Of a stretch of DNA of 64,000 bases, positions 22,101-48,818 are shown one piece after another (the stretch's first letter is position 1; each line of letters opens with the position of its first letter). The position numbers and the translations under genes were made by a program. The notes under the pieces were generated by a model that saw only the letters and a program-made list of their open reading frames with translations, had not been told where the DNA came from and did no database searches. The stretch is taken from positions 20,905,501 to 20,969,500 of the forward strand of contig CM038912.1 in the NCBI GenBank assembly GCA_021904315.1, written 5' to 3'. The stretch is from Sphagnum magellanicum (lineage: Eukaryota > Streptophyta > Sphagnopsida > Sphagnales > Sphagnaceae).

Positions 22101-23204
22101 ATGGGGAACATGAAGACTCAGATTGTGTTGATGGCTTTTGTTGTGCTCTCGAGTGCAGTAACGTTCGCTGTGGCAATTCAATGCAGTCGTAGCCAACCAT
22201 GTAGCGATGGCCTGTGTTGTAGCCAGTTTGGCTTCTGCGGATGCACTGATGCTTACTGTGGGAATGGATGTCAGAATCATTGCGGCAACTGTGGCGGCGG
22301 CGGCCAGATCACCGGCCAAGCGACTTTTTACACTGTTTACGTTCGTAAGAACCTTGAAACCTGCTGGTCTAATTTGTCATATTGTTACACCCTAACTGAT
22401 AATCAATTTGACCTAGAGCCCCATTAGACAGCTATGTGTTTGAGACTGCGCAAATTATACGACTCATGTCCAACATGAGCTAGATTTGAGAACGCAACGA
22501 GGCATAGCCACGAAGCACACTTGCGGTATTCTGAATTCCAGTAATCATTCTATCGGTCTTTGGACTTCCTTAATCTTATTCTTTTGGGGTGAGTTAATCG
22601 TGCAGCCTCAGCGTGCTATGGCTTTGACCAGAGCCCATTTCCGCCAGGCCCACTGATCGCAGCGGCAAGCCCCGATCTCTTTAACAATAAGGCAATATGC
22701 GGCTCTTTCTATGACATCACATGCAAGGGTGCGGCTTCCGGCGGTAGCAATCCCTGCACCGGTAATCCAACAGTGAGGGTGAAGGTTGTGGACTTGTGCC
22801 CAGGGTGCCATCAAAACAGCTTCGATCTCTCACAGCAAGCATTTGCCAAGATCGCAAACCTTAATGCCGGTCGTCTGACCATTAGCGCCCGAAAGTACGT
22901 ATTTCCTATTCTTCTATCGCTAATTAAGAAGACCATATTATTTTGCCTAATACACGACTCTAGATTATTGGGAATCTCGGTAATCTGGATATGGACCGTA
23001 TAAGCTCTATAATGATTCTCATTACGACCAACTGTGAACACTTTGGTGGCACAATCATGTTCTCACAAACACCGTGCTCGATCGATGATCTTCTTTCGTG
23101 CTTGCAGGGTATCAGGCATTGGGGAGGAGCTGGAAGCTGCCGAAATTGTGCAAGTCGTGGAACCTCCGCGGGACACCATCAGTAACTGTACTACTCATGT
23201 GTAA
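22101..23204 (+). CDS. Hevein-like / PNP (EG45)-like barrel protein, gene 1 (one hevein domain)
   Basis: Three exons, 22,101-22,344, 22,606-22,894 and 23,108-23,204, join to 209 residues. Introns are GTAAGA...TGCAG and GTACGT...TGCAG. Residues 1-25 are a signal peptide (hydrophobic LMAFVVLSSAVTFAVA). Residues 28-64 are a chitin-binding type 1 (hevein) domain with [15 protein letters not shown] and ten cysteines, two more than classic hevein. After a Gly linker, residues 73-178 form a double-psi beta-barrel of the plant natriuretic peptide/EG45 type ([41 protein letters not shown]). No expansin C-terminal domain follows. The tail is [17 protein letters not shown] and ends CTTHV. The product should be secreted and bind chitin-like glycans, probably in defence or the cell wall; that role is inferred from the families. 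The exon 3 frame was chosen because most of its differences from gene 2 are then silent. The start is the ATG shared with gene 2 (MGN/MGK). Confidence 0.88.
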
Positions 23205-23550
23205 GCATATGAGTGTTGCGTGTTTTCTTTCAGACTGTAGACAACTGGCGCGCCCATCCAGGACACACTCAAGAGTATATATACATATATATCCATCCAC
23301 TCAGTACTGCAGGTAGTGCAGAGACGAAGTGCTAGCACCAGTCGACGACTCGTTGACACACAGCCCGATGATCAGAAATACTACTGCATCATATAATCAA
23401 TGGGACCTGCAGGTAGCGGATCAAGCGCCTGCAAGTGTCCTACTACAGACCCGAGGGGATCATATTGCAGTTCCGAAAAATCTGACTATACTCTACAATA
23501 AATATATTATCATGGCGCTCATGTAAATCTTCAAAAGACAAGCAATAAAT
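23205..23550 (+). terminator. 3' untranslated region and poly(A) signals of gene 1
   Basis: Downstream of the stop the sequence stays nearly identical to the matching part of gene 2. AATAAA occurs at 23,497-23,502 and 23,544-23,549; either could direct polyadenylation. The equivalent signals for gene 2 are at 49,108 and 49,155. Confidence 0.55.
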
Positions 23551-26500
23551 GTTGTTTACATTGACTTAGAATACAAAAAAGCATGATTCTACTTCGATTC
23601 ATGTCCTACTCCTGAGTCCTTCCATGATCAGTGTGACACACGAGATAATTCCAGGCTCTCTGGAAATAAAATTGATCGTGGCGCCCATATTTGTGGTGGT
23701 GGGTATATTACGGAAATGTCAGGCGAAAGCAGTTGTCAACCCTAGCAAAATACCCTATGAAATCCCCTGTAAAACCAACTGTCATGACATAGGAATTGCC
23801 CTTGAAGTCCCCTGTGAAGTGCACTCTGGGAACACATTTCCCTGTCTCACCGCAATTTTGTGGGAATTGTGTTTGAGACTAGTTTTGGGAGGGGACTATT
23901 ATACCTCCTTCCTCTACATAGAGAAATGCTCAAATGTTTCTTGTGAGCCTTCATTTAGTAGCTAGATTGCCATTAATTTGGAGTCTTTTACATAAACAGT
24001 AAAGAAAGGTACCTAGATCTGATTGTCTTGAATTTAACTCGTGATTTCTTTGCAAATTAATGTGGTAATATTTGAAGAGAAAGTAGGCAATTAATTTTAA
24101 GAAGTTCCAAGCAATCTGTAAAATTAGTTTTTGGGACACTGTCAGAAAACCCAAGAGAATTTCAGTATGTAATGTTTCAGAAATGATTTTACGCCTCAAC
24201 AATAACAGACTTGATTCGGTTGGAAGACGAGGAAAAACAAGACAAGAGCTTTCAAAATTGAAATCAAGGAGCAAGAACTTGACCTTGAACTTAACCCTTA
24301 AATGTGAGGAAGTACAAATTTGGTCTGTTGCTCCCTCATTACTCTTATATGGGTGCAATGGTTTCAAAATTTCATGCACATGGGTTGTACCTCTCATGTC
24401 ATTGAGTGTGGTGCACCCTTTCGATGGTAGTTTCTTGTCTTTGGCTGCCTTGTGAGCTGCCCAGCATGATTGGAAGCTTTGGGCAGCGTTGTGTAATCTT
24501 GGCATAAAGTTAGTGAGAAGTTTTACCGCCCAATGTTTTTAACATTTTGAAAATAAGAACTCAATCGAAGGATGGAGTGCCTAGTTTTGGGATAGGAGTG
24601 GAGGTTGGGAGCAGTTGTAAACTGTCCAAATTTCCTGTTTGCCATAAAAATGATGAATTATGACTTACATTGAATGGACAATCCATTTATATTTCATTTC
24701 AACTCTTTTTTGGGCAATTTTTTTTCCATATGATTCATATAGATGTCTTTTATTTATCATCAATTTATTTTTTTATACAGCAAATGGAGCACATCTTAGT
24801 CCAAGTATTCAAAAACTTGCAATTTTGAAAAGTACCCAAAACTAAAAAGCTTAAACCTCCAATGGTGACAATTTTCCATTTAAATCATCCAAATCTTTTT
24901 TTTTTAAAATCAATACATCCAGTTTCTGAATCAAAATTTTTTTTTCCAAAGTTTTGCATGTCTTTTAGCACATTTGTGTGAACTAGTCCTTTTATTGGAT
25001 TGGGACTGTTTTGGTCAAATGTTAGTTAAGGGTTAAATTATTAAACTAGTTTTTGTTTGTGGGATAAATTATTAAATGTCTTTTTGAAAGCCAACAAGGG
25101 CAAATGTGGGCAACAATCGAAATTTATTATGAATGCGAATGAAGAATTGAAGTTGTTTTAAACAAGGCAAATCCAAGAATTTAGATCTTATCATATGCAC
25201 AATTGCTTCAAACGATTTGCCTTCAATAGTCAGTAACACAAGTTCATCATTGATTACAATGGAACCATAAAAAAGCTTAATCTTTGAACTATTGATTTTG
25301 AATGATAAACATTACAAGGTTCAAATTTTTTAAGGTGTATCAAAATTTTGTCATAGTTTCACGTTTTTTTGTTGTTTTTTTTAGTCATTTTTTAGCATGT
25401 AAAGACACAATTATGGATGATTATGATGAAATTTAATATTGTAATGGTTTAAAATATAGTCTTTTAAAAAATTTTGACAACTTTTGATTCATTACTTTTT
25501 GTGGGGATCAAAATATAAAGTAAAAAAAGATTGTAGTAAGGACTAGGTTCTTTTTGTCCTATGCGGTACACCTTAAAGGATTTTCACCCTATAATGAACA
25601 CCACCCATTGGAGAAATGATGACATTTGCTCCATGACAATTGCCAAATACTTTTTAAAATGGAGGCGCAATAAGGCTAACTATGGATAACACCCTGGTCA
25701 CTTTAAAATTATAAAAAAAAATGTTAAAACAAAAAGGTAAATGAAAATGAACATAAACAAAGAAAAAATGTGGAAAAAGGTATATCGATCAAAAAAAATT
25801 AAAATCATGCACACACATACACATAATACATAAACAAAAAGAATGAAATGCATAAGAAGTGCCTAATAAAAAATGTTGTGAAAAATGTAATAATTTAAAT
25901 AATTAATACCAAGAACGAAAAGACAAAGAACAAGATTAAAAGGTCATTTAAGCACACAAAAAAAATTATATCCCTTCTTTCAAACCATATATCTTTTTCA
26001 TTTCATTTTTTTTTGAGTGATTTAAAAAGCTATGGGTGTGAAATTTGAAGCTTTAAAAATGATCTTTCAAATGCAAAAACATTAGATCAATGTATGTACA
26101 TCTTAAACTTTAAACATAAACTGTTTTTTTGTGCTTAAACTTTACATTCACGTCTTTCATTTCCATAAGCCATATCTTGTTCATTTAAAAACCAATTTTA
26201 GTGATTTTTATGACATTAGATGCGCCAAAGAAGGGTTTACAAAATGTTTTCAATGTTCAAAAGTCATGGACCAATGTGGAAAAAATTATAAAACTTTATT
26301 TACAAAGGTTTTTCATATGCTTGTCTACCTTACCATATTAAAATTACAATATGTTTTTCTTTGAACAAACGTACTCCAAATATTTTATCTTATATTTTTT
26401 ACCCAAAAATGAATTCCAAAACTAAATAAAGACTAAATCTTCACTTTTAATAACAACATTATAGTCTATGTTTAATATGCAATGGAACATGGATTTTTTT

Positions 26501-27448
26501 TTTAAAAAAAATTTAGTAAAGAAAAATCATCTCAATGAAGTTTCATTTTCTACAGGCCATTATAATGGAAAAAATTATGTGGCCATTCAGTCCTCCCTTT
26601 TTCAAGGAGAGAAGAATCAAATGGTTGTTTATGTTTGTTTTTTTGGCATTAGATTAGGGTGGCCATTTGATTTTCCTTTATGCCAATGCAAATAAAAAAC
26701 AATAATTTGAATTTTTTTTTGTAGATGAGAATCAAGTGGCTTGATTCTCATATTCCTTTGGGAAGAGGAGAATTGGGTAGGCACTTGATTCTCTTGATTG
26801 TTCGACAAAAGAAAAAAAAAAAAAAACTTGAATTTTTTTTTTGTAAAAGAAAATTAGGTGGTTGTTTGTTTCTCATGTTCTTTTAAAAAGAAGAAAATTG
26901 GGTGGCTGTTTGATTCTCATGTTCCTTTAGGCAAAGAAAATGAAGCAACCACTTGATTCTCCTTAGGAAAAAAAATAAAGCAACCATTCGATTTTCTTCA
27001 ACATTCAAAACCAAAATTTTGAAAAGTTATTTTTCATTATGTTATTTTTGTATTTTTCATTATCTCTTCTAATATAGTTAATCATAAGATGAACATTTGG
27101 TTTTGTTTGATGTTTTTAATGTAAATTTGAAAAAAATTTTGAATTATGCAAAAGATAGGACAATAATTTACGTCTTTTAATACAAGTTGAAAATTTGATA
27201 ATTTGTTGTGTAACTGAAGAAATCAAGTTTAATTAACTTCATCAACAACCTTTGTTAAAATTGTGTAACATTGTGTTTTCAAATATCAATATCTTTTTGA
27301 TGGTGTTGTCACATTTTTTATTGAAACCATAACACATTGGCCTTCATTGTACACTTCAAAAAATTGTTCATATTCTATTTTTAAATTATTACCAAGAGCA
27401 AGAATGTTTTCGTCAAATTCACCTTTTCCATCCACAATCAACAATTTT
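23551..27448. other. Duplicated intergenic DNA after gene 1
   Basis: The part up to about 24,500 is more balanced in composition and very well conserved between the copies (matching about 49,160-50,130), yet I recognise no family in either strand. From 24.6 kb it is AT-rich. At about 26,560-26,990 a degenerate repeat with words such as GGGTGGCTGTTTGATTCTCATG recurs several times. No gene is supported. Confidence 0.5.
26560..26990. repeat. Degenerate repeats (GGTGGNNNTTTGATTCTC words), copy A
   Basis: Five or more imperfect units of about 50-80 bp contain AAGAGGAGAATTGGGT, GGTGGCTGTTTGATTCTCATG and a T-rich spacer. The matching array in copy B is at about 52,650-53,080. It looks like an old minisatellite; no coding meaning is evident. 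Confidence 0.5.
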
Positions 27449-27799
27449 CACTAGTAGAAATCAGCCAAAATGTAACCACTCCATTTACGACTACATGCAA
27501 CTTGTAGTCGTTTGCGACTGGATTTGGGAACATTTGCAACTACAAAACCAAATTTCAACTATTTTGGTCATTCTCACAACTATGATGCAACTATTAAAAT
27601 TTTCATCCTATTGATTGGATCGATTTTACATTCATTTTCATCCATTAATAGGTTGATATGTCCCATTAGTCGAAGTAGTCACCAAATTAGTTGCATCCTA
27701 AAGGTATTCTATAATGACATACGGGTGTATTTTAATGTATGTACTAAAATTATATATATGCATACGTATGTATATTGTTCATATAATGAATCTCAAAAT

Positions 27800-28440
27800 T
27801 AATATTTGAACTTTGGATTTTTAATTCAAATCTGAAAATTGATATTTCAACTATGAAAACTACTATTTTAGTTTTTTAAAACAATATTAGAATTTGAAAC
27901 TTGATATTTGAATTTGAAAATTGTTATTTCAATTGTTTAAAAGATTATTTGAATTTCAAATTTTTGATTTGAATATGATATTTTCAATTTAAATTCAAAA
28001 AGGCTTCTTTGATCTAAAAATTGATATTTCAATTCTAAATTCATGTTTTCAAATCCAAAAATTAGTATTTCAATTCAGAAGGTTATTAATTGATTATAAA
28101 ACTGGACATTTTAATTTTGAATATTTTTTTATGAATATGGAAATTTATATTTCAATTTCGAGAAAATTTCATTTAACTTTTCAATAATCATTTGATTTGA
28201 ACCTGAAATTTCAATTCCAAATTATTATTTGGGATTTTCAAAATTAATCCTTCTAGTCTGAAAATTATTAATTAAGTCTAAAAATGGACATTCCAATTTG
28301 AATATTGTTATTTGAATCTGAAAATTTACATTTCAATTCTGGAAACTGTTATTTAAATTCAAAAAACTTATTTGATTTAGAAATTGATATTTGAATTCTA
28401 AATTATTATTTTCGAATCTAGAAATTAGTATTTCAACTCA
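27800..28440. repeat. Degenerate short tandem repeats inside CACTA element 1
   Basis: Units of roughly 30-35 bp built on words like GAAAATTGATATTTCAATTC and its variants follow one another for about 640 bp. The same array, longer, occurs at 40,430-41,430 in CACTA element 2, so it belongs to the element family and not to the insertion site. Confidence 0.65.
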
Positions 28441-29455
28441 AAAACTAAATTAGAATGACAGGAAAAATAATTATATATTTACTAAAATAATTACTAAAAG
28501 TTTAATATAATACTATATTATCATTAAATTCTTTTCAAATGACATAATAATATGTAACAAAAAATAGCTAACCTACACTAGCTACAAATTACATTATTAT
28601 TATTATTATTAGTAATAAATTATGAAGTATTACTATATTATAATAATTACCAGAAAATATTAACATATAGTTTTAAGTTTGTATATTTCAATTTTATAAT
28701 TAATATTTATTCATTATTCAGTATTCAATTATTATGATCAATTACTATATATAGTTTTTATTTTCAATTTTAATATTATATAATAATTATTGTAGTAGTT
28801 AGAATGGAAATCTAATAAATTAATATACAAATGCAGAAATTATTTTCGAAGGAAAATGTTTCTTGTTAAAAATAAAAAATATTTATTATAATAATTCATA
28901 AATATCTATAATGAATAAAGTAATAATATGAATAATAATAATGAAAATAATAATGGGAATAATTGTAATAAAATAGTTAGCCTAAGCTAGGTTTTAATTA
29001 TATTATTAGATTAAAAAAACTACTACTTAATTTATATAATCATTAATTATTAATTAATGAGTATTTCAGTTATTATGTTAATTTATTTGGTTATGAAATA
29101 ATAAATGATTAATTATTAATAATTAGCTAATTATTTGAATATTAGCCAATTATTAGTTAATGAAATTGGTTGATAAATCATTATAGTTCATATATAATGA
29201 AAATTAAATAATATTATTGTTTATATAGCTAATAAATTAAGTAATATTTAGTAATAAATAATTAAATAATTAATACAGTAATCATAATATATTGATGATT
29301 ATTATTATAAATAATTAATTAGTTGGATAATTTATAAAGTGAATTAGTTAATATCTAATTTAGTTGTTAAATAATTAATTAACTAGCTTATTAATTTATT
29401 TTTCTATTTTTTGTTCATTAAATAATTAGCTAATTAGTTGTCACTTACCACTTAA

Positions 29456-29615
29456 TTATATACTTTTCAAAATGAGGATGAAAGCCAAAACATATGGGAT
29501 AAACTTTTTAGTTGCAAGTCATTTGCGACTAAAAATGTTTAGTCGCAAATGACTTGCAACTAAAAAGTTTATCCCATATGTTTTGGCTTTCATCCTCATT
29601 TTGAAAAGTATATAA
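29456..29615. repeat. Near-perfect 160-bp palindrome in CACTA element 1
   Basis: Arms of 80 bp (29,456-29,535 and 29,536-29,615) are reverse complements, apart from one mismatch close to the centre. Each arm contains the element's own TTTAGTCGCAAATGACTTGC motif and the ATCCCATATGTTTTGGC stretch. CACTA element 2 has only the right-arm version (about 42,460-42,522), so the palindrome arose by a local inverted duplication in this copy. A transcript would form a long hairpin. Confidence 0.9.
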
Positions 29616-29759
29616 ACAAGGTGTTTTGTCTTTATATTTTCATATTTAAAAATATGGACATATGGGATGAGCCAATGAAAAAGACTTAACCCAAAATAAA
29701 ATATAGATATTCATGTATTTACACTTAACTACATACTTCCCTAACTTACCTACTTACTT

Positions 29760-29890
29760 TTCTACCTACATACCTACCTAAGTAGGTATTTGGCCTAGGT
29801 AGGTAAATAGGTCCTATCTAGATAGGTGTTTAGCCTATATGGGTAGGTAGGTATATAGGTAGGTAGGTACTTAGTTCAACCTACATACCT
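29760..29890. repeat. ACCTACC / TAGGTAGG array in CACTA element 1
   Basis: ACCTACATACCTACCTAAG passes directly into the complementary GTAGGTATTTGGCCTAGG and alternates again to about 29,890. It is the same internal palindromic tetranucleotide array as in the other CACTA copies of this window. Confidence 0.7.
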
Positions 29891-30287
29891 AAATATTGAT
29901 TTAAATTGAATTTGGACAAATTCAATTAATATTCCACGTGTCACAATTTAAACCATCTAAACATAAAAATTAAACATCTTGGATTATTTCAAAAAAATGA
30001 AAATTAATTAATTATTAAAAGTTGGGACACGTGGCAACACATAAATTGTTCCCATTGTTCACCAAAAAAGTCGCATCCTAGTTGTAAATGACAATACGTA
30101 TATGACAAGTCAAAGGATGAAGGCGTATTTTGTTGACTTTTTCCTTCATCCAAAATTCGTTGTCGTTTGCGACTAGTGTCCTATGCGACTTGTCCAACGC
30201 GACTATTAAGATTTTAGTTGCAAATGTCACTTGTAACTAAAACTTAGTCGCATGGACCAGTTGTAAAATGGCCATTTTCTATTAGTG

Positions 30288-33036
30288 TTTCTTTCATCTT
30301 TGTTATCCTTTACTCCCTTTACACCAATGACAATGATAACAATGGTAGTAAACTTTCAACTTTAAATAGAACTTTTGAATTCTCTAATGGAATCCATGAG
30401 GAAAAACATGGGAACTAACTTAGGTTGGAATGTAAGAATTGATGACACAATGGTTGTTAGTTCAATTGAAATGACAACATGCATGTCACCTTTTTCAAAA
30501 CCCCTATTGGATTTTGATTCAATGCCAAAATTTTCCACCCTAAAAAACATCCCTTTTTGCCAATGCTACTCATACATTTTTATATGAAGTGATTTCACCC
30601 TCAAAGTGATTATGGTTAGAATGGCCCTGTTCAACAAATCATAATGCAAATATGTATAACTTGGATCTTTCGTGCCCCTATTTACAATTTGATCAAAGTT
30701 GGTATACCTATTGAACACCTTTGCCTCAAATGCATCATTGCTAATTCCAAAATCCAAATCATCTAGTGCAACAACTAATCTAATTGTTTTCACTATAACA
30801 ACAACCATTGTACCAAAAAAAAAAAGAAAAAAAGAAAACCTACCAAAATGAATTTGACAACAAACAAATGAAATAACATTTGACAAAACCAATTGTTGCA
30901 AAAGCACACATTTGGTGCAAAACATACATTTGCAAAAACACACACTTGGAAAGGAAGCAAAAAACCTAATCAACCAATTGTGAAAGTTTAAACCAAACAC
31001 ACTATTCCTACTATGAGAGAAAAAAAACAACAAACATATATTGTTGAATTTATATGGGACAAAAAACCTAACGTAAACCCTAAACCTTTTTCTATTATGT
31101 ATTAACTATGGTAGATTTCAACTTAATAATAACAGTTCATAATGGTTTGGTGATTAAATTACAGTCTAATAATGAATAAGACATCAATATCCTTGGCATC
31201 TTATGAATTTTATTATATGCTTGAACCTTCAATATTTCAACTTGCATTTGAAAGCTAATACATAGACCTTAAAATTTTTTCCACTATTTAACCATTATTT
31301 TCATTTTCACTCAAATGTATTATTATTATTTGTTAAACATCAACTTTTTTATCATGCACATCAAAAATTTAGACACAAAAAAGTTAAAATTGATTTTTTC
31401 CCCATTTTTTGGTTAGATGTGTTAAGTCTTTGGTTTTAAACAAGATATATATATTTTTTTTTGTTAAATTTTCAAAATTAAATTTTTGTGTTGAAAATTT
31501 TCCATGCCCAAAAAAATGACATGGATTTTTATAAAATATTTGCTAAAGAAAAAATCTTCATTAAGCCACCATATTATGGAAAAAAAAAAAAAAAAGAGAG
31601 AAAAAAATATCCACACCCTTTCTCCAACCACCCATCCCACATCACCAAAGAAAGAATTCCTTAAAAAACCAAAAAACAAACCCCAACCTTCCACCTCGAA
31701 AAAAAATCAAACTTCTCTCTCCCATGCCATCCAAGAAAGTTGCCTTGGGATAGTTCCCATCCCCCAAAAAAAAGTCTCTTTTCCCAATCCACCCAAAGAA
31801 ACTCCTTTGAAAAGGAGTGTAATTACCCCATCATCCCCTCACCCAAAAAAATCTTTAAAAAGATAAAAATAGAATTGTAACTCCTCATCCCCTTCTCTTA
31901 AAGCTCCACTTACAATTTGTAATTCTTTCAATCCAATTGAATAATTCACTTCTTATATCCACTGAAACCCATAATAAGAAACAAACCTGGGAGAAAAGGA
32001 AAAAAAAAATTTAACCCCTTTGCTCTCCCTAAATTTTCACCTATAAACCTCACTGTAACCCCCACCTAACTCCAAAAAGAATTATAGACAGAAACCTATG
32101 ACCTTATCCATTCAGCCAACTTTTGATTCTCCAGCCCCTATACCCGCTCATGCCAATAAAACCAATTTCCAGCCAATCCCCTATACCATTGGCTCCATTC
32201 ACACAATGCCTCTGGATGACAGAGCTGGCAAAGAAACATGGAGTGATGGTAGGGCGTAGTTGGATTTCAAGGTGAATGAGGGTTAGGAGAACCACAGCAA
32301 GATGCTAGAAATGACTTGCCTTCATCTTCTCAATTGCGCGCTTGATCTCTGCAACAGTTAGGCACTTCCACCATGAGTAGCCACGGGAGCGTTGTAGTGT
32401 GTGTCTGCAGCTTCACTGTCTCATCAAGTACATCCCAATCAAGCCCACCATACTCCAGTAGCTACAATGGCAGATGAATGAAACCAACTCCCAGGTCATA
32501 TCTGTGGTGGGTTCATGCCTCAGATCAAGAAAACCAACCAACATATTTGTTTAAATCAATGAGCAACAAATTGCACAAATGATGCAGTGATTGCAGTACC
32601 GCAGTCGGAAAAGTGGGTTCTTACTAGAAGATCTCAATAAAGTTATCTGTGAAGTCATGCTCTCTTTCACCCCCCATCCCCTCTTTCAGTGGTATCCACA
32701 AAGTAATGAGATTATATTAAATCTCAGTATGAAATGCTGAAACTCAGCATTTATTGCTCAACGTTTGAGAGTAATTATAGTAATTGTACAGGTAGGAGCA
32801 GTGAAAATATATGTAGCAGCAGTGGAGGCGCTCGGGAAAAAGGAAAGAGGGGATGAAACTCAGTTTACCACCAAAATTGGTGGAAAAACTAGTTTGGGTC
32901 CCAGTTATTTCATTTTGTAAAATTCCATTCCCAATTACACATTTGATGCCCTATTTTGTCGAAACTGGCCGTTCTCGACCCCTAATCGCCTGACTTTACA
33001 TATAACTTTAATATGATGCCATACTCTTTCAACTAG
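30288..33036. other. Duplicated intergenic DNA between inserted elements, copy A
   Basis: AT-rich to about 32 kb, then more balanced. At about 31,560-31,860 low-complexity Lys/Pro/Ser-rich readings come from A- and C-rich DNA and are not a gene. At 32,310-32,470 the minus strand has exon-like readings (see the separate entry). The matching sequence in copy B is 53,532-56,253. Confidence 0.45.
32310..32470 (-). other. Exon-like block of unknown origin, copy A
   Basis: On the minus strand one frame reads LLEYGGLDWDVLDETVKLQ and a neighbouring frame reads WWKCLTVAEIKRAIEKMK, both of natural protein composition in GC-balanced DNA. They are in different frames, so at best this is one exon boundary or a broken exon. 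The same block is at about 55,539-55,690 in copy B with few changes. I do not recognise the family. Confidence 0.3.
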
Positions 33037-33288
33037 TTGGTCCCGTCTGGGACCTGGAGTGGAGGTAGGCCTAGCGCCCAATATTATGAAAGGTATCAAT
33101 ATTTTTACTGCCGATGTAATTAAGGATTTTTCATATAATTATGACAAAATAATTCAAATGCTGTGAAAGAAAGGCAACAAGAAACAAAAAATCTTTACTT
33201 TGAAAGTGTTTGAAATGATGCCACATGGCACTCTGAATTTTTTGGGGCATTTTTTAAAAGTAGTTGCAGGTTGATGGATCCAAAAGAC

Positions 33289-33410
33289 CTGCTCTGCATC
33301 GGCATAGCCTCGGAGTTTTGCAATCACATGGAGTCCCAGAGCCCTTGCTTTGGCACCACTTGCTAGGACCAGGCCAGCAGCCCCATCACTGCCCATCCCA
33401 AGAACAAGAT
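33289..33410 (-). pseudogene. Acetyl-CoA acetyltransferase (thiolase) exon fragment
   Basis: The minus strand reads SDGAAGLVLASGAKARALG followed by LHVIAKLRGYADAEQ. This matches the conserved thiolase segment of acetyl-CoA C-acetyltransferase (plant AACT), where relatives have SDGAAALVLVSGEKALxLGLxVIAKIRGYADAAQ. The enzyme joins two acetyl-CoA molecules at the start of the mevalonate pathway. Right after DAEQ comes GT, at the place where an exon could end, and similarity stops. The upstream exon boundary is unclear, at about 33,405-33,415. Only this one exon is present, with no catalytic cysteine or histidine parts, so it cannot make an enzyme. It lies next to the PGAP1-like fragment in the same orientation. 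Confidence 0.8.
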
Positions 33411-34985: not shown

Positions 34986-35114
34986 ATTGCGATCGAGCTT
35001 GCATATAATTATGGACTGTGAAAAAAAATCTTTACTTTGAAGGTATTAAAAATGATGCCACGTGGCGCCCTGAAAATTTAGATTGCGTTTTGAGGCCTCA
35101 GGCCTACCTCCACT

Positions 35115-37200: not shown

Positions 37201-40049
37201 CCAGGGGCACACCCCAATTTGTCCAAAATTCTAAAATTTATTTTTGTTTAATTTTCTTTGACAAATTATCCAATATTTGATCACTCGCGTACCTTGATGC
37301 AATGGGGGCACCATTGTTTAGGAGATCTCAAGTGACAAACAAAACAAACAAACAACCTAAATAGAGAGACAGTGTGGCTTCTGATGTTGGCTGAATGGTG
37401 AACTTGTTACCCAATTAATCTGAACATTATTCATGATTCAATATTTCCCACACCTTAAGTCAAAACACTACAAAACCATCTTCTCACCAAGCAATTTCAA
37501 ACAATACCAAAAGTGCACCCCGATATCCTTCTTTAACATAAACAAACTACCTTCTTTAATAGATAGATTACAACCATTAATATATAGAAACTAAAGGGAA
37601 AAGAATTGAAGAAAAAGGAAATTGCAATGAGGAGATGAGGATTTATTTTTATTAATTTAAATTTTCTAATGTAGCAACCTTAGTGATCATCCAAAAAAGG
37701 ATTTAAAAATAATTGGCAACACAATTGTAGAAAATTGTATAAAGTTGTGTTGTTTTTCAAAATTTCTGATGTAGACAACATGATAATCATCTAGAAATTG
37801 TTGTTGCCAAATTTGCCAATAAACAAAGTATAAAAGCTTTTTTTTAAATGAGATCCATGCACATTATTCTTCATTACTTAATACAACCTATTATGGAATT
37901 TGGTGTGTGAATTTTTTTTTGAAATCTAAGGATTTATTCCATTTTTTCCATGAGAATTTGTGTATAGATCAAAATCACAGTTTTTAGGTTCAAAGTTGGA
38001 AAAACCAATTCACCAATAAGAAAACCAATTAGTCCAACCAATAGAAATATTCCCCAAAAATAAAAACTTGTGTATTATTTGTAATCTGAAAAATAAAATT
38101 CCTAAAATGTTTGCAAATCTTTTTCCAAAAACTTGAAAATCTTCATGAAAATATTACTTTGCAATTTTTGAAGAAAAAACTTTGTGAAGATTTGTTACAA
38201 AAAATATTGGACATGACTTAGGAAGAAAAGAAGTTAAAGCTGTAGAATTAGAATTTGGAAACTTATAAAAAAATTGAATTTTTTCCTTAAAAAATCATGG
38301 AATCTACAACTAAAAAGGTGTTGAATTTTTGGGTTCAATGTTTGCAAAAAAATCACCACAAAAATGAAAATAATTGAAGCCAATAACATGAGGAAAAAAT
38401 TGAAAGTGGTAGAATGACTTGTCAACTGGCAAGGATTTTTTAAATTTTCAATAAGAATTATTATAATATATGTCACCAAATCCACATTAAAAAATGGCCA
38501 TATTCTTTAGTGATACATTAATTTCCTTACTAACTTTATGTTCTCAATTTGATTGCTAGGTTACCAATTTCAATTGTAAGAATCTAGTGCAACTTGTATA
38601 TTTATTCTTGGTTGTTGAATTTTAGAACATTCAAAATGGAAATGCTAGGCCCTTAGTTTGTTGGAAAAACACATTTTGATAAAAAAAAAATTAGATTTTT
38701 TTAATGGTATGATTAATATTTTGACATAAATTTTTAATTAATTTTTGGTGGTAGAATTGAATATTTCAACAAAAAATGTCAATTGTAATTAAGTGGTGGG
38801 TACAATTTAAAATTGGAGTGCCTTAATCCCATTTGGTAACATTCATTTTTCAACTTTCTAGCTTGACAAATTTGCTCTATTTTTGCCCAAACTCATAGGA
38901 TTTTTTTTCTCATGGAAGTTATAACATTAAGATTTTTTATTTTTTATCCCTATAAATTTTCAAGCTTGATTAGCTTGTGTTTTTCTACATTTAGTGTAGG
39001 TGGTGTATCTAAATCATAAATTGCAAAGATGATGGGGGAAATGAAGATTTAACTTAAAATTGTGTTTATGAATATAATTGTTGCAAATTCATATGTTTTG
39101 AAATTTTAAATCTCCCTTTTGTTATAATTAAATCAAAAGACAAAATTTAGGAAATCAATTGAGGAAATGTACCGTAGACAAGGAGGATGCAATAAGGGAT
39201 GCTTGGATTTTAACTTAAATTGTTTATATTCATCTAGCAAAAGGTCTCAAAATTTGTGAAGCACAAGGGCTAACTAACCAATCTCATTGTGTTCATTCTA
39301 CCAAAACTTGTAAACATTGTACACTCAACACAATTACAATGTAAGCCACATTTGGAATTCATATGAAATTGGAAATTCACATGGGAGAAGACAATTCAGT
39401 GTAAGAGTTTTGGCAAAATGAGATTCACAATTGGGTTTACCACATCATCCCCAAGACCAAAAAATGATTGAATAAGAATTGTGGTGTTATTATAGTTTGA
39501 GGGTTTCAATAGCCTTTTACATATTAACGCATGGAAAACTACATGATGACCACATCAAAAATTACAAATTACATGTAATGTAAAAGAAGGCATGGACATT
39601 GACCTCTTTTAATTTCTACCATATATATATTTTTAAAGATTTTAAAAGGTCGATTCCAAATGATATCTTTCACCCCATCATCACTTATTAATTCTAAATG
39701 GGCATGGTCACGATGTGTTACATTAGAAGCAATAAAGTAAGCCAACAATTTGGATTAAATATGAAGTTTAGAACCACAATATAATGATCCAAAGGTGCCC
39801 CTTTGGATGAATATTTAATTTGTGTTTATTTTCAAAATATTCCTCAAAACATCTTTAAATTCGTTTTATATTATCATGTTAAGGTTTGTATTGAAAAGTT
39901 GCAAAAAGATGTCATCTTCAAATCTTTTCAAGACATTGTAATAAATGTTTTTCTTTTTAAAAATTGCTCAAAGGATTATAATTACAACTATTTTTTAAAA
40001 AAATTGGGTGTTTTTTATTCACTAGGGTGATTTCAAATTTATTCACATG
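37201..40049. other. AT-rich duplicated DNA, copy A
   Basis: No gene seen. It corresponds to about 58,411-61,315 in copy B. Copy B has about 50 extra bases near 58,510-58,560 that repeat the local phrase TCATTGAGGGCTTT, which copy A has only once at about 37,178. Confidence 0.55.
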
Positions 40050-40429
40050 CACTAGTAGAAATCAGCCAAAATGTAACTAGTCAATTTATGACTACATGCG
40101 ACTTATAGTCGTTTGCGACTAGATTTGAGAATATTTGCAACTACAAGACCAACTTTCAACTATTTTGGTCATTTTCACAACTATGATGCAACTATTAAAA
40201 ATTTCATCCTATTGGTTACATCAATTTTACATTTATTTTCATCCATTATTTTCATTTCATCCATTAATAGGTTGATATGTCCCATTAGTCACAATAGTCA
40301 CCAAATTAGTTGCATCCTAAAGGTATTCTACAATGACATACGGGTATATTTTAATGTATGTACTAAAATTATATATATATATATGCATACATATGTATAT
40401 TGTTCATATAATGAATCGCAAAATTAATA

Positions 40430-41430
40430 TTTGAACTTTGAATTTTTTTATTCAAATATGAATATTGATATTTCAATTATGAAAAAATGTTATTTTAACT
40501 TTTTAAAAATTTTATTAAATTTGAAACTTGATATTTGAATCTGAAAATTGTTATTTCAATTGTTTAAAACATTATTTGAATTTGAAAATTTTGATTGAAT
40601 ATGATATTTTCAATTCAAAAAGACTGATTTGATCTAAAAATTGATTTTGAATTTTAAATTAATATTTTCGAATCCAAAAATTAGTATTTCAATTCAGAAA
40701 ATTATAATTGATCATAAAAATGGATTCATTTGAATATTCCATTTAATTTTGAGTATTTCTATGTGAATATGAAATTTATATTTCAGCTATGAAAATTTTT
40801 CATTTATATTTTAAATAATCATTTAATTCGAACCTGAAATTTAGATTTTCAAAATTAATACTTCAAGTCTGAAAATTAGTAATTGAGTCTAAAATTGGAC
40901 ATTTCAATTTTGAATATTGTTATTTGAATATGAAAATTAACATTTCAATTCTGAAATTTTTTATTTAAATTCAAAAAACCTTTTTGATCTAAAAACTGAT
41001 ATTTGAATTCTAAATTATTATTATTGAATCTAAAAATTATTATTTAAATTTAAAAAACTTTATTGACTCTAAAAATTGGCAAGTTGATTTTAAATATTTT
41101 TATTTCGACTTGAAATTTGATATTTGAATTTTGAAGTTTAAAATTTAAATTTTAAGAAATTATTTGACTTGAAAGTTGAAATTGGAATTCCATATTATTA
41201 TTTTGGATTCTCAGAATTAATATTTCAATTCAGAAAATTATTAATTAAGTCTTCAAATGCAAATTTTAATTTTGAATATTATTATTTGAATCTGAAAATT
41301 AACATTTCAATTCTGAAATTTCTTATTTAACTTCTAAAAAATTCTAAAAACCGATATTTGAATTCTGAATTACTATTTTGGAATCTTAAATTTATATTTT
41401 AATTCAAAAAATTATTGATTGAATTTCAAG
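40430..41430. repeat. Degenerate short tandem repeats inside CACTA element 2
   Basis: About 1 kb of imperfect units of roughly 30-35 bp with words such as GAAAATTGTTATTTCAATT. It is homologous to the array at 27,800-28,440 but longer, so the number of units varies between copies. Confidence 0.65.
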
Positions 41431-41432
41431 GG

Positions 41433-41447
41433 TTTTTTCTACTAGTG
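41433..41447 (-). other. Internal CACTA-type terminus
   Basis: TTTTTTCTACTAGTG is the exact reverse complement of the element's left terminus CACTAGTAGAAA plus three A. With the left end at 40,050 it would delimit a shorter unit of about 1.4 kb. CACTA element 1 has nothing like it at the matching place. The flank to the right (CTA) does not match the ATG target duplication, so the 3.2 kb unit inserted as a whole. Confidence 0.7.
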
Positions 41448-42639
41448 CTATCCATAATAAATCACTTTTATAAATAATTATAAATGATTATGTTTATTAA
41501 ATCTAAGTGACACTAAATAATTATTGTTATGACATAGATTTGTATATTATATAACTTATATTATTATATTAGAAGAAATTAATTAAATAAATTAATGTGA
41601 CATTACTTTAAAATCATTGTAATTACTTCATATAAGAATTAATTAGTATGTGCATAATTATTTTCTAATCGAACATAATTATTCACACTCTTTAATTTAT
41701 AACTTCAAACCTGAATTAAAAATTTGGAAAAAATTATAATGTAGTTGGAATAATTATTTTACTGATATTAATTTCACGAATTATTATACAATAATATTAT
41801 CTTAAAAAATTCTGTGATTAATCATCTATGATAAATATTTTATAGTAATTTTATAGTAATTATGAAAATTAATGTTATGTTTAACAAAATATTGTATTTA
41901 TAATTAATAATTACCAAGAGAAAAAAATTATTTGACCTATAATAATTTTTACAAAAATAAGTGTTATTATACAATAAATAATGTAATTAGTTGAATAATA
42001 ATTCTTCAAAATTTTGTGTAAGAATTTACTTCCTAATAAAAAAATTTAATTCATTATATATAATTTTAAAATAAATATTTAAAATATTTAATTTTAAATT
42101 ATAACCATTAAATTTATTTCATATTAATTATATTATATATAGTTCGATCAGATTCTGAAAAGTAATTAAATATTTTAAAATATTTTATTATTTATGAATT
42201 ATGTATTAATAACTTGTGAGTAACTAGATAGTTAGTTTGTCAAATATGAAGAAGGTATTACTTATTTAAGTAATTGATAATGAATACTGAATATTTGTCG
42301 TGTATAGTTTATAATTTAAATATATATAAATTTCATCATTATGAAATAAATGATTATTTAATTATCTAGTACTTGAATTGTTTAAAAATCTAAAAACCCT
42401 AGAAAATAAGGGATGAAGAAAGCTTTGGAATTACAACTTAGTTTGTAAAGAAGTTGCAACTTCAAAACTTATCCCATATTGTTTGTTCTCCATTCCTATT
42501 TTGAACACTATATAAACAAAGGGGTGTGCCTATGCAATTTCACATTAAGAAGTTTGTGCACATGGGATGAGCTAATCAAAAGGCTCAACCCAAAACAAAA
42601 AAACAAATAATGCACAATTCTTAAGTACATACTTCCCCA

Positions 42640-42860
42640 ACCTACTTATCTATCTAGCTAGGTAGGTACTTAGTTTGACCTACCCATTTAGGTCAGCTTA
42701 TGTACCTACCTATTTAAGTACCTACTTATATGAGTAGGTATTTAGCCTAGGAAGGTAGAACCTACCTATTTATTACTTTACCTAGGTAGGTAGGTAGGTA
42801 GGTAGGTGAGGATTGTAGGCACCTATTTATGTACCTACCTAGGTACCTACCAACCTAATA
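42640..42860. repeat. ACCTACC / TAGGTAGG array in CACTA element 2
   Basis: Alternating blocks of CCTACTTA/CTACCTAT words and GTAGGTAGGTAGGTAGG, the latter five or more units long at about 42,782-42,808, able to pair with each other. It equals the array in CACTA element 1 in position and type. Confidence 0.7.
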
Positions 42861-43264
42861 TTAATATTTTTATTAAATTATTTTTTAATGCCACGTGGCA
42901 TATTTACATTGGGCCACGTGCCATAATATAAGATCATCCAAGTCTTTGAATTGAACGTTTTAGATTATTTCAAAATAATAATAATAATAATATAAATAAT
43001 CATATATTAAAACACGTGGCAGCACATGATTTGCCTTGAATTGTGACCAAAATAATCGCATATTAGTCGCATGTGACAATACGTATATAATGGAGTCAAA
43101 GGATGAAATGTATTTGTTGACTTTATACTCTTTGTCATTTGCGACTAGTTTTCACATGCGACTTGTCTTAGGCGACTAAAAGGATTTTAGTTGCAAAATG
43201 TCTCTTGCGACTAAAATTTAGTCGCAAAGAGCAGTCGAAAATACATGTTTTTCTTCTAGTGATG

Positions 43265-46142
43265 TTCATATTATTTACTATGAATGTTGTTATGGGTGCA
43301 TTTTTATTAAATTGAACCAAGTATCACATAATAAAATATTTACCTTTTTGTTTCAACTTGTAAATTAAATTGGTGTTGAATTTTGTGAATGAACTTTCAC
43401 AATGTTTTTTTTAATGTACTAATGAAAACATTTGGAAAAGTTTGAAATGAATCTAATCAATATGGAATACCCAAAAGCATATTCAAATGTTTGCAATGCT
43501 TGCTTTTACTACTTAATGGATTATTTGAAATCCTCAAAAAATAAAATTCAATGACATATTTATGGGAATTTTGTAAAATACACTATTACATAATAATATA
43601 AGGTAATATTTTCTTAAGTCATATGTATTAAAAAAAACCAATTGACATGTAAATTGTGATTGTAAAAATATTTTCCCTAAATGACCAATCATATTTGACC
43701 ATATCATTTTGATTAAACTACCCACCTTTTATAAGGATTTGGTCAAGTGAGCACTTTTGGCCTATTGTAACTAAAATGCACCTTTATATAAATAAATCCA
43801 AAATTTCAACACCAACTTAAATTTTCACTTTAAAATATGAAATATTTTAGGTAGTGTTTTCAACTATTTTGATCCATATTAAGATGACTTCACTTGAGCA
43901 CATCATGCTTTCACACAATTTCCATGTTCTACAACCCCTAGATGTTTTGTTCTTTAAACATTTCAAAATATAACATTTAGAAAAGATATAAATATAGGGC
44001 TATGGTTAGGAATGATTATAGTGAACCAAATAAGATCACACTAATTGAGCACTAAACATTAAGCAAATCTTTCCAACAATCATTGTCTAAACAAAAGATC
44101 AAGTGAAGACTAAAATAAATTATATAATTGAAATCCCAAGTTAATAATAATTTTTTTCTAAAAGAGGGACAAATCATAATAGATGGTGCAGTTACGTTAG
44201 GAGGAATATTTTTATAATAGAATTTTTTATTTTTTGTCATGTATTTGATTAAATGTCACATTGACCAAGTAACCAAAAAAATTGTCATTTTTTTCAATTG
44301 AACAAGCCAAAAGACACATGTAATTTTAACAACCATGGATCTTTAGTCAAATTGATCAAATTCATAATGAAATGGACAAGATAATAAAATTAAACGTGTT
44401 TTTAAAACCATGAATTCTTGTAATGTTAAGCTACCATTTACCTACCCACTACTTAATTACATGTACCTTTTTATGACCTATCGTCACCTATATTTATTAC
44501 CTACCACAAAAACAATATTTTTGAAGATAATTACAAAAATGATTTCAAATATTTCATGAGCCAAACCATTCATTGGTTTGTTAATCAAATGGTCCATTAC
44601 TCAATGAATCAAAATGACTAATCAAATGGTTCCTTGTTTTATTAGTCAAAATGACCACTTAGTTACAATAAACATACCAAAGTCAATATGTACAAAATGA
44701 CAAGATGGTCTTTTGATGGATATCCAACTTGTGTCTTTTAAAACCAAATTATTTGATCAAAATTAAACCATGATTTTTCCTAATGATAACAATCAAATTA
44801 AGACTACAAATTTGGTGAATTGTTGCTGATGATATGGAGTAGCCAAAACATCAATATTATGTGGACATGCCAAAGAGCCTTAAATGCCACAAAAGTGAAA
44901 GGATTGAAGTCATAGTTAAAAGTCTAATAGAAAACCTAGATGACCTTACTTTTGAATCAAAAGAAAATATCTAAAATTTATAGGTTTGATCCATAAAAAC
45001 ATTGTCATTCACAAACAAATATGTTGCTACATTTGCCAACAACGAGATTTTTTTAATAATAACATCAAAATAGAATTTCGATAATAAGCTACCATCAAAT
45101 GAAGAATTTTAAAAAAAATTATGCATTGAAATTTTCCCAACACAATTTTTTTGATTTTTATTATTTATGGTCCATTTATATTGAAATATTTAACCTTTCA
45201 CATGGAGTTTTGAACCAATCCCCTACATAATGAATATTTACAAAATAACCTATTGTACTTTTGACTAAATGTATGTAAAAAAATTATAATATTTATAATC
45301 TAATAAATATTTAAAATGTAAGAATTTTAATTCATGTAAGATGTGAAAATTTCAAATGTCAAAGGCGAGCCACATTTGACCTAACCATGGTTTTACTCCA
45401 TATAGGAAGAACATTCGAACATTACTAAGGGAAGAATTCAAAAAGAAAAAAAGAACACAACCCAAACATGATTGGTGGGGGGACCATAAAAGAGAAGATG
45501 ATGAATGGGAAGAAGACAAACATGACAAGGAGCGGTGACAAATATAAAAACAATGAATTAGAAAGAGAATATGATGATAAGATGATAAGGGAACAAAGAA
45601 TATTAAAAAGAACATAACATAGTTTGGGGGGGGGGGGGGGGGCGGGGAGGAGGGGAGAGTACAAAGGACATCGAGTTGATAAATAAGAAGATAGTGAATA
45701 CGACAAGCAAAATACTAAAAAAAGAAGAGAAATATTACTAAAAAACACGAAAACTTACAATGCTATGGAAGCTCCAAACCCCTACACCACAAACTAGGAA
45801 AATGAAGACAATTAAAAAGGTAGGAGCTCCATCAATAGGGGGGAAAAACATGAACACAAGTTGGGAGGACCATCACTACACTATAATGAACATGACCTGA
45901 ACATTGTGCACAAGATCAAGAGGGGATAGCATGACAATGAATAAAACTACTAGGGGGAGGAGCAAGAGAGTGAACAAATTATGCCATTATGTAGGAGTGA
46001 GAGCACTACCATAAGAATTCAAAATCCTAGCACATGTGTGAGAGGCTTGAAGTTTTATTCAATTTTAAATGATTTATTTCAAAATTAGACAATCTCTTTA
46101 AATTAACAAAAACAAAAGCCCTCAAGGATTTCACATCTAAAG
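43265..46142. other. AT-rich duplicated DNA at the end of copy A
   Basis: No gene seen. It matches 61,316 to the window end. From about 45,400 the composition becomes purine-rich on the + strand (GAAGAA, GGGGAGGAG, AAGAAGAC words); open minus-strand frames here are Ser/Leu/Phe-rich shadows of that purine bias. Homology with copy B can be followed to 46,082, where the window ends in copy B. Confidence 0.55.
45626..45660 (+). repeat. G-run (17 consecutive G) with further GGGG blocks
   Basis: Seventeen G in a row at 45,626-45,642, then CGGGGAGGAGGGG. The equivalent site in copy B (about 63,566-63,580) has a shorter GGGGGGGGTGGGG. Such tracts can form G-quadruplexes and change length readily. 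Confidence 0.85.
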
Positions 46143-46330
46143 GTAGGTGCGGTTCAGTGATGGAAGCTCTCCTTTTTCTTTATGAGGTCTTGGGTTCAAA
46201 TCCAATGATCTTGATAACTGGGCTTTTTTAATGAGGATTGATCAACTTGATAATCAATGATTTTTTAATTTAAAGCAATGTGAAACCTGAGGCGGATATT
46301 AAAAAAGTTAACTTTAAAAAAAAAAGATGC
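46143..46330 (+). repeat. Possible tRNA-derived SINE at the duplication junction
   Basis: GTGCGGTTCAGTGATGGAAGC resembles a polymerase III A box region and GGGTTCAAATCC (46,192-46,203) a B box, spaced about 40 bp apart as in tRNA-derived SINEs. An A-rich stretch ends the patch at about 46,310-46,330. It does not fold as a tRNA. It lies between the end of traceable copy A homology and the upstream block of gene 2. Confidence 0.45.
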
Positions 46331-46394
46331 TAGGCTTTAGGGGCTTGAAACTGATGGTTCTCCCGAAAAAAAACGAAGAGTGAAAACCGACCAA

Positions 46395-47273
46395 CATCCC
46401 TCATAACCTAATTGCAATGCAACTCCTTAATTAGGCTATGGGATGATTTAATGGATGACAGAGGGATTAAGTAATGATCCTCCGTTGCACGTGCTACTAA
46501 AATAATGCTTTGTAGGACAAGCGTTTCTCGGCCGCTCATTTGTGATGACGAATTGTCGACGTCAAATGACGCTTGTGGTGCGTCAATCGGTCTGAGATAT
46601 TTTCCTACTGTATTTGAAAAGCACCTTTCCTAGTGATTTTGTTCTCCTTTGTGCTTCACCATCCATGTGGGGGACGTTCCCCAATTGCCAGCGCAGACTC
46701 TGCTATTGCCACCTCTAAGCTTCCAATCGGTACTTGAACCTATTACTAACTAAATCTGGCGACGTGGAATTTTTTTCTCGAAATATTAATTTCCTTTCTA
46801 GAAAAAAATGTGAAATATTGAAAAAAACAGCACGTGAATTTGGGACAGAATATATATATATATAAGTTTCGGAGGTTGAAAATCTGCAAAACAATTCCCC
46901 AAAATAAAAGAAGTCACTGGGTGACACGAGCAGACAAAATTAAAGCTTCAGAAGCACCCATCATGCAGCTGACAAGGATGAGCAAAATTATATATATATT
47001 TAAAAATATTATATGTTGCCAAATCCACATTGCAAAGGGATGTTCTTTTGTGATACCCTCATCTCCTTAGGGTTGCAAGTGGCTTGTTTGCTATGCTCGC
47101 AGTTTGACTACTCGACTAGGTTAGTTCTCAACGTGTACCTCGTATATAATTTATTCTTGAGTGTCAAAATTTTGAAATGTTCAAAGGAGTCTGTGGGACA
47201 TAGATCATCCATTATTGAAACAAAATTTAAATATTTAAACAGGATCTGCTAATTGTTAGTGATGCGTCACGGG
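46395..47273 (+). promoter_or_regulatory. Upstream region of hevein-like gene 2
   Basis: It begins with CTCATAACCTAATTGCAATG and TTAATGGATGACAGAGGG, in common with the distal upstream part of gene 1 (17,435), and continues without the 2.9 kb interruption into CGGCCGCTCATTTGTGATGA. Possible binding words are CACGTG (46,488), GACGTC followed by TGACG (about 46,559-46,573) and a TGCGTCAC word just before the TATA box. TGACG and GTCAA words are typical of as-1 and W-box sites in plant defence promoters; any such control here is inference. Confidence 0.5.
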
Positions 47274-47280
47274 TATAAAG
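47274..47280 (+). promoter_or_regulatory. TATA box of hevein-like gene 2
   Basis: TATAAAG followed by CAACA, identical to the gene 1 box and about 196 bp upstream of the ATG at 47,470. The expected transcription start is near 47,305-47,310. Confidence 0.75.
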
Positions 47281-47469
47281 CAACAAAGCCTACTCACTCT
47301 CAACTCATTCTTTACCTCTCAAGAAGTTTGCTCTTGTGGGGATTTGTTCTTGGTTGAGGCTAGATCTGGAGTTCGATTTTTGGATGTCCAGAATTCCTGA
47401 GGCCTGATCAGCTCGTGTTTTTGTGCATCCAGTGTTGTTGTTTTTGTTTGAATCTCCCTGTTGCAGCTC

Positions 47470-48818
47470 ATGGGGATGGGGAAGATGAAGGCTCAGCTTT
47501 TGTTGATGACTTTTGTTGTGGTCTCGAGTGCAGTAGCATTCGCAGTGGCTCAGGACTGCAGTGGTAGCAATCCGTGTCCCGATGGCCAGTGTTGTAGCCA
47601 GTTTGGGTTCTGCGGATGCACTGATGCTTTCTGTGGGAGTGGATGTCAGAGTCAATGTGGCAACTGTGGCGGTGGAGGAGCACCAGGGGAGTGTAGCGCT
47701 AGCAATCCGTGTCCTGGTGGCGAGTGTTGTAGCCAGTTTGGGTTCTGCGGATGCACTGATGCTTTCTGTGGGAGCGGATGTCAGGGTCAGTGTGGCAACT
47801 GTGGCGGCGGCGGAGGAGGCGGCCAGTTCACTGGCCAAGCAACTTTTTACACTGTATACGTTCGTAAGCACCTTTGAACCTGCTGTTCTTTGTAGCCTGC
47901 AACGCGCTCTCGCGGTGCTGATCGAAAACACATCCAGTTAATCTTCTAGTCTTCAATTTGAAACTTCTGCAATATTATTACAGCCTAACTAATAATAATT
48001 TTGAAGTAGAATCCCATTAGACTATGTGTTTGGGACTGCGGAAATATAACTCATGTCCAACATGACCTAGATTTGAGCACGCCACGAGGCACAGCCACGA
48101 AGCATACTTACGGTATACTAAATTCCAGTAATTATGATATCGGTCGTTGGACTTCCTTAATCTTATTCTTTTGGGGTGAGTTAATCATGCAGCCTCAAAG
48201 TGCTTTGGCTTTGACCAGAGCCCATTTCCGCCAGGCCCACTGATTGCAGCGGCAAGCCCTGATCTCTATGGCAATGGGGAAATATGCGGCTCTTCCTACG
48301 CCATCACGTGCACGGGTGCGGCGTCCGGCGGTAGCAATCCCTGCACCGGTAATCCAACGGTGACAGTGAAGGTTGTGGACAAGTGCGGAGGGTGCAATCA
48401 AAACAGCTTCGATCTCTCACAGCAAGCATTTGCCAAGATCGCAAACCTTAATGCCGGTCGTCTGACCATTAGCGCCCAAAAGTACGTATTTCCTATTCTT
48501 CTATCGCTAATTAAGAAGACCATATTACTTTGCTTAATACACGACTCTAGATTATTGGGAATCTCGGTAATCTGGATATGGACCGTATAAGCTCTGTCAT
48601 GATTCTCATTACGACCAACTGTGAACACTTTGGTGGCACAATCATGATCTATCAGCTCCTGACCTTGATCATGTTCTCACAAACACCGTGCTCGATCGAT
48701 GATCTTCTTTCGTGCTTGCAGGGTATCAGGCATTGGGGAGGAGCTGGAACCTGCCGAAATTGTGCAAGTCGTGGAACCTCCACGGGACACGATCAGTAAT
48801 TGTACTACTCATGTGTAA
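47470..48818 (+). CDS. Hevein-like / PNP (EG45)-like barrel protein, gene 2 (two hevein domains)
   Basis: Exons 47,470-47,863, 48,193-48,481 and 48,722-48,818 give 259 residues, with the same intron phases as gene 1. A signal peptide of about 27 residues ([20 protein letters not shown]) precedes two hevein domains, residues 30-66 and 75-111. Each has ten cysteines and the core [15 protein letters not shown], and they are joined by a GGGGAPGE linker. A Gly-rich hinge leads to the double-psi barrel at about 123-228 ([33 protein letters not shown]). The two hevein segments are almost identical in DNA, so the domain doubled recently or was lost from gene 1. The second half of exon 2 onward is nearly identical to gene 1, but the first half is not, which marks it as a likely recombinant. 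The first ATG is used; a second, at 47,476, matches the gene 1 start. Predicted role as for gene 1: secreted, glycan-binding, probably defence-related. Confidence 0.88.

Follow-up and report, generated by a model that had tools for sequence, protein, structure and literature searches.

Unequal crossing-over is an ordinary and already well-known source of chimeric genes. Chimeras formed in this manner between tandem paralogues occur in the maize Rp1-type resistance clusters; in these clusters, as at human CYP21A1P/CYP21A2, a hybrid is made of the halves of two neighbours, and the interval between them is gained or lost. Chimeric genes of the human pair are described in PMC3161346. The locus presented here differs from both systems in that the duplication product, not the deletion product, is found in a reference genome, and in that the genes are hevein-EG45 genes of a moss. 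With respect to architecture, these genes can be compared with PR-4 class I and pro-hevein, in which a hevein domain is combined with a Barwin domain. The moss proteins share with this class a predicted secreted hevein domain that is followed by a double-psi beta-barrel. In contrast to PR-4 class I, the barrel is of the DPBB_1 type (PF03330), no match to Barwin (PF00967) was detected in gene 2 (E up to 1) or in gene 1 (E up to 0.001), and two hevein domains are encoded by gene 2. In the open-licence literature searched, no match was found for a hevein-EG45/expansin-barrel fusion architecture or for hevein together with unequal crossing in moss, and the available part of a lectin-evolution survey that includes Sphagnum fallax (PMC6362431) does not mention a hevein-barrel fusion.

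The window, a stretch of 64,000 nucleotides of Sphagnum magellanicum DNA, lies on contig C6 of the genome searched (438,994,042 bases in 31 contigs). Two genes of this type are located in the window and a third is located to its right. A mosaic gene, a colinear duplication with both ends inside a gene, and the third gene are present in the assembly. The array, which reads A, B/A, B, is very probably the product of unequal crossing-over between older paralogues, with gene 2 as the B/A joint gene.

Gene structures and predicted proteins

The genes, regions, unit copies, tracts and inserts mapped below all lie on the forward strand. Gene 1 (A) comprises three exons. Exon 1 (22,101-22,344) encodes a signal-like start and one hevein domain (PF00187 in the protein), exon 2 (22,606-22,894) encodes an EG45/expansin-like double-psi beta-barrel (Pfam PF03330) and contains an identity step at 22,809/22,810, and exon 3 is located at 23,108-23,204. 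Exon 1 of gene 2 (the B/A chimera; 47,470-47,863) encodes a signal-like start and two hevein domains and is B-derived; its nearest relative is gene 3, as compared up to 47,831, past which gene 3 has a deletion. Exon 2 (48,193-48,481) is unlike gene 1 up to 48,396 and gene-1-like from there, and exon 3 (48,722-48,818) is A-derived. The splice sites of both genes were read from the sequence by eye, and the joined frames were checked as open: the joined exons give a 209-aa protein with no internal stop for gene 1 and a 259-aa protein for gene 2.

A hydrophobic, signal-like start is common to the two proteins. Both domains exceed the curated Pfam cut-offs (27.8 bits for PF00187 and 28.8 bits for PF03330), with 30.0 and 57.6 bits in gene 1 and 52.1 and 54.9 bits in gene 2, and both products are predicted secreted hevein-domain and DPBB_1 proteins. 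Gene 1 has one hevein domain, and genes 2 and 3 have two each; the domain of gene 1 is identical to the two of gene 2 at 26 and 25 of 35 positions, which is a near-equal match to each. Among solved relatives identified by sequence, the first part of the gene 1 protein is matched by hevein-type lectins (wheat-germ lectin and the lectin-C/lectin-D chains, presumably from pokeweed), and the second part is matched more weakly by expansin-type chains. By sequence, the hevein part is that of a putative chitin-binding lectin of the hevein type.

The promoter of gene 1 contains a dispersed repeat of ~290 bp (21,541-21,830), ~70 bp upstream of the TATAAA at 21,899, which is absent at this position in genes 2 and 3. 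A related, inverted copy is located just downstream of gene 3 (window-scale 67,553-67,815), and many further genomic matches were found among the 40 of 987 candidates scored.

Relatives of both domains were also observed elsewhere in the genome. The hevein search gave at least 17 matches from 20 scored candidates, some of which are second domains of one gene, and the barrel search gave at least 4 matches from 12 scored candidates. Two-hevein genes at 20.590 and 20.619 Mb of C6 belong to a tandem duplication of ~28 kb. Their promoter, 5' UTR and hevein exon are homologous to those of the present genes at about 73-78%; in contrast, no barrel exon match was found in them, and a by-eye reading shows a hydrophobic C-terminal tail past QATHYMTH. 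Matches at 20.733 and 20.802 Mb were considered as more genes and rejected as flank-like remnants, with no hevein or barrel exon in tblastn at E up to 1 and one 6-residue exon-3 match at E 0.097. On contig C17, two adjoining plain genes at 6.081-6.091 Mb have a signal peptide and no hevein domain, and we take them to encode EG45-like/plant natriuretic peptide-like proteins. They share with the present genes the barrel (56% and 53% identity) and, as read by eye, a probable intron behind the EATYYT/QATFYT motif, whereas their signal peptide stands directly ahead of the barrel and the hevein domain is absent (also read by eye). Since these plain barrel genes lack the hevein domain and probably have an intron behind the same motif, the C6 lineage is likely to have acquired the hevein part by insertion between signal peptide and barrel.

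The identity step and the nearest relative of gene 2

The first-pass annotation had proposed that the leaders, exon 1, intron 1 and the first ~200 bp of exon 2 are diverged between genes 1 and 2. The alignment of all three genes confirms this for the regions upstream, for exon 1 and intron 1, and for 204 bp of exon 2. The two genes differ by 26.4% in the promoter (91/345), 22.1% in the proximal promoter and 5' UTR (53/240), 13.5% in exon 1 (33/244) and 12.3% in exon 2 before the step (25/204), and by only 1.2% in exon 2 after the step (1/85) and 1.9% in intron 2 (4/213). Leaders and introns are not unrelated: they are homologous, and for the most part they can be aligned at ~70-90%. The A upstream region, promoter and 5' half (20,910-22,809) have old paralogous counterparts at about 46.8-48.4 kb and at 65.7-66.9 kb. 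The last difference ahead of the step is at 22,809/48,396. Comparison of identity along the copies, which the annotation had suggested as a check, shows that the difference falls sharply at 22,809/22,810, as located both by an unsupervised segmentation with no prior positions and by a scan statistic. The scan placed the lowest-divergence tract at 22,810-24,712 (37/1,900 sites, 1.95%) with a likelihood ratio of 64.2, compared with a permutation maximum of 9.7 (0/300 as extreme).

A further upstream block and a third hevein gene had been predicted a few hundred bases beyond 64,000. The gene exists but at a greater distance: its ATG is at window-scale 66,530, 2.5 kb right of the window end. The upstream block does recur there, at 65,462-65,658 and 65,872-66,894. 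Self-comparison including the right flank showed that 45,513-46,577 carries on at 63,446-64,488, where a 974-bp insert follows, that 46,576-46,769 matches 65,462-65,658 (85% identical), and that 46,820-47,834 matches 65,872-66,894 (94.6% identical). The 3' part of gene 3 is 80-84% identical to genes 1 and 2.

The nearest relative of gene 2 switches once, inside the gene. In the 5' part (21,100-22,344), 182 of 227 informative sites pair genes 2 and 3, with 30 pairing genes 1 and 2 and 15 pairing genes 1 and 3. Conversely, 82 of 93 sites in the 3' part (22,810-23,420) pair genes 1 and 2, with 8 pairing genes 2 and 3 and 3 pairing genes 1 and 3. Sites that differ in all three genes number 8 and 2 in the respective parts, and the switch between the two main site classes has a Fisher P of about 1e-38. 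With the C6 genes at 20.590 and 20.619 Mb included as outgroups, the tree of the 5' part places genes 2 and 3 together (support 97/98). The 3' grouping was derived solely from distances among the three genes, with no outgroup; outside exon 2, genes 1 and 2 are 2-4% apart, compared with 13-19% to gene 3. Gene 2 is chimeric, as the annotation had proposed, with a 5' half that groups with gene 3 and a 3' half that groups with gene 1.

Gene 3 itself (window-scale 66,530-66,904) encodes 124 aa that comprise a signal-like start and two hevein domains but lack the barrel, and its TATA-like box is TATAAC in place of TATAAA. On the gene 2 scale, it has deletions of 316 bp (47,832-48,147) and 230 bp (48,201-48,430), each with about 3 bp of matching sequence at the joint (by-eye reading), and its frame stops six codons past the glycine linker. 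Gene 3 is nearly all deleted across 22,345-22,809, where the 53 aligned sites include one that pairs genes 2 and 3, none that pairs genes 1 and 2, and two that pair genes 1 and 3. The first site at which genes 1 and 2 agree against gene 3 is 22,853/48,440. Because of this deletion, the joint can be placed between 47,827 and 48,440 but not pinned to one position.

The duplicated unit and its uneven divergence

Copy 1 of the duplicated unit (22,810-48,397) comprises the A 3' half, about 24 kb of intergenic DNA and the B 5' half, as defined by a colinear BLAST chain. Copy 2 (48,398-64,000) is cut by the window end and runs on to the ATG of gene 3. The region 22.8-48.4 kb is colinear with 48.4-67 kb, and the breaks correspond to inserts and to the part that gene 3 has lost. 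The interval between the parental breakpoints is therefore tandemly duplicated with its joint at homologous positions, and the second parental gene, gene 3, sits beyond the duplicate. On either side of the joint A and B are homologous, as far as about 20.9 kb upstream and, in patches, as far as about 24.06 kb downstream (versus 67.4-69.05 kb). No further copy of the unit was found up to window-scale 110,000 (46 kb rightward) among self-matches over 150 bp. Both unit ends lie within A/B homology, which favours a crossover, since any other block duplication would need ends that fall by chance at homologous points.

Three segments of 2.1-3.2 kb are present in copy 1 only. Two are related inserts whose ends we take to be CACTA-like. 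The first (27,448-30,291) has an empty site at 53,531/53,534, and the second (40,050-43,261) has a 3-bp target duplication, ATG, and an empty site at about 61,313; these empty sites in copy 2 indicate that both inserts postdate the duplication. The third segment (33,033-35,154; 2.1 kb) is either an insert or a loss from copy 2, where 64 bp are unaligned. The clean empty sites also bear on the origin of the array as an assembly artefact, in which two haplotypes or alleles would have been placed in tandem. Such an error is the least probable of the explanations considered: the 130 kb examined contain no N bases, divergence between the copies is about 2-14% per 500 bp, and a haplotig error is not expected to place a joint inside paralogous exons with halves from different genes. 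Moreover, the source is a moss, whose plant body is haploid.

A degenerate relic of the hevein-gene upstream and 5' UTR region (37,887-39,082; 61-65% identity) lies in the duplicated unit, in a block common to copy 2. A search of the duplicated interior for hevein/EG45 coding remnants (tblastn, E up to 10) gave chance-like matches only. Left of the unit, transposase-like frames were observed at 1,531-3,252, with HTH_Tnp_Tc5 and CENP-B_N at 1,531-1,953 and DDE_1 at 1,957-3,252.

Near-identity had been expected for the remainder of the window, which proved incorrect. The copies differ by 2.15% at 22,810-24,902 (45/2,090 sites; segmentation and scan), and beyond 24,902 by 10.93% at 24,903-32,100 (462/4,227) and 8.65% at 36,121-46,769 (621/7,179), in addition to the inserts. 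Between these segments, 32,101-36,120 is a second stretch of low divergence (2.95%, 54/1,831), which is broken by the 2.1 kb present in copy 1 only. A single event would be expected, although not strictly required, to leave a unit of uniform age; instead, the segments range from 2% to 11%. One clock-like event is consequently insufficient, and later conversion or differences in rate are needed.

The divergence is low at both unit ends, namely at 22.8-24.9 kb between genes 1 and 2 and at 47,281-47,834 between genes 2 and 3 (2.9%, 16/554, compared with 6.1% at 46,820-47,280 and 12.6% at 45,513-46,577). Low ends would be expected if no crossover had occurred and gene 2, as one of three old genes, had become a mosaic through two conversions, 5' from gene 3 and 3' from gene 1. 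However, conversion duplicates no interval, and here ~24 kb between the genes are duplicated colinearly, so conversion alone is not enough. In addition, most of the interior differs by 8.7-10.9%, less than the 16-29% of A/B noncoding DNA (a range that leaves out 22,420-22,605, whose origin is in question), and the duplication accordingly seems to be more recent than A and B. Conversion without crossover is accordingly very improbable.

Regional mutation rates, with faster change in methylated, AT-rich intergenic DNA, might instead make one recent duplication look mosaic. The interior blocks are GC-poorer (0.25-0.40) with a larger excess in transitions, and a segmentation by transversions alone marks neither the 22,810 nor the 24,902 edge, as such rates would predict. 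Conversely, block transversions keep the contrast (27/2,223 in 22,810-25,036 versus 96/2,372 in 25,043-27,447), and CpG sites account for the smaller share of transitions in every interior block. These two counts make methylation-driven decay insufficient as a cause, even though the transversion segmentation misses the edges. Regional rates are also opposed by a control, another tandem duplication of 28 kb at 20.58-20.64 Mb. Its divergence is nearly uniform, 4.54% across 22,774 of 25,582 sites, aside from one faster kilobase (13.07%) and the last part (5.56%), and most of its kilobases fall within 3-7%. Its best low segment, of 400 bp, has a likelihood ratio of 16.4 versus 11.6 in permutations, far weaker than the 64.2 observed here. 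Its gene (58/838 sites differ) is not slower than its flanks, and a generally slow gene region was rejected as the cause of the low tract for this reason. We consider an explanation by regional rates improbable. Constraint from an open frame on the minus strand (23,951-24,505) was likewise rejected as a cause of low divergence at 23.9-24.5 kb, since the frame has no Pfam match.

Because the control shows no comparable contrast, later gene conversion between neighbours is the somewhat favoured account of the uneven divergence; position 22,810 would then be a conversion edge, and the crossover would lie elsewhere in the same paralogous interval. The segment 22,810-24,902 itself is probably either a gene-conversion tract or a directly crossed-over segment.

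A specific variant, which is compatible with the crossover view, places the older crossover in intron 1, at or before about 22,420, and treats 22,810 as the point where a later conversion tract begins on the left, its right end lying near 24.9 kb. Between genes 1 and 2, 22,420-22,809 is 10.94% diverged, which equals the 10.93% of the interior at 24,903-32,100, with the 2.15% tract between them. Intron 1 after 22,420 is less diverged between genes 1 and 2 (17/180) than intron 2 between genes 1 and 3 (37/208; P=0.019), with P=0.051 for the comparison with genes 2 and 3. The tract also enters dispersed-repeat DNA, where 6/400 sites differ at 24.3-24.7 kb, such that its right edge ignores the genic boundary, and the uniformity of the control points in the same direction. 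However, the 12.3% of exon 2 before the step also fits A/B coding divergence (13.5% in exon 1; 13.8% in exon 3 between genes 1 and 3), and the sequence of gene 3 is gone for most of the deciding stretch. We give this variant an even chance. The repeat DNA at ~24.28-25.04 kb accounts for many of at least 57 genomic matches (40 of 139 candidates scored).

Proposed history and biological setting

The preferred reading, unequal crossing-over, can be set out as follows. A (gene 1) and B (gene 3) would have been two old tandem paralogues, each of which then encoded a predicted secreted hevein-EG45 protein. A crossover between them while misaligned, within the intron 1/exon 2 region and presumably by non-allelic homologous recombination (NAHR), would have yielded the retained product, in which an interval of roughly 25 kb, from the A 3' half through the B 5' half, is duplicated. 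Later conversion may have homogenised 22.8-24.9 kb between genes 1 and 2 and about 46.8-47.8 kb between genes 2 and 3. After the duplication, copy 1 gained its two CACTA-like inserts. Two deletions removed the greater part of intron 1 and of exon 2 from gene 3. The mechanism first suggested for this locus, unequal recombination in exon 2, is supported by the mosaic and by the third gene; what one recent crossover leaves unexplained is the contrast between 2% and 8.7-10.9% within the unit. It is possible that the step at 22,810 was left by conversion at a later date, in which case the original crossover took place at another point of this paralogous interval.

A broader role can be suggested tentatively, and we regard it as possible rather than likely: the C6 cluster could be an active generator, in which old hevein-EG45 paralogues repeatedly cross over or convert and the barrel half is recurrently lost (in gene 3 and, separately, in the pair at 20.59/20.62 Mb), leaving two-hevein proteins. 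Fusion, chimera and truncation would then be alternative products of one recombining array under pathogen-driven selection.

The assembly does contain a chimeric gene, and the mechanism and the prediction hold, the latter made from raw sequence and borne out beyond the window end. In its completeness the case is unusual: the two parental genes, the hybrid and the two copies of the interval remain in a single array. Its crossover, set beside a tract that was probably homogenised later, offers a usable natural case in which crossover and gene conversion can be told apart, at a probable defence-gene cluster of a moss.
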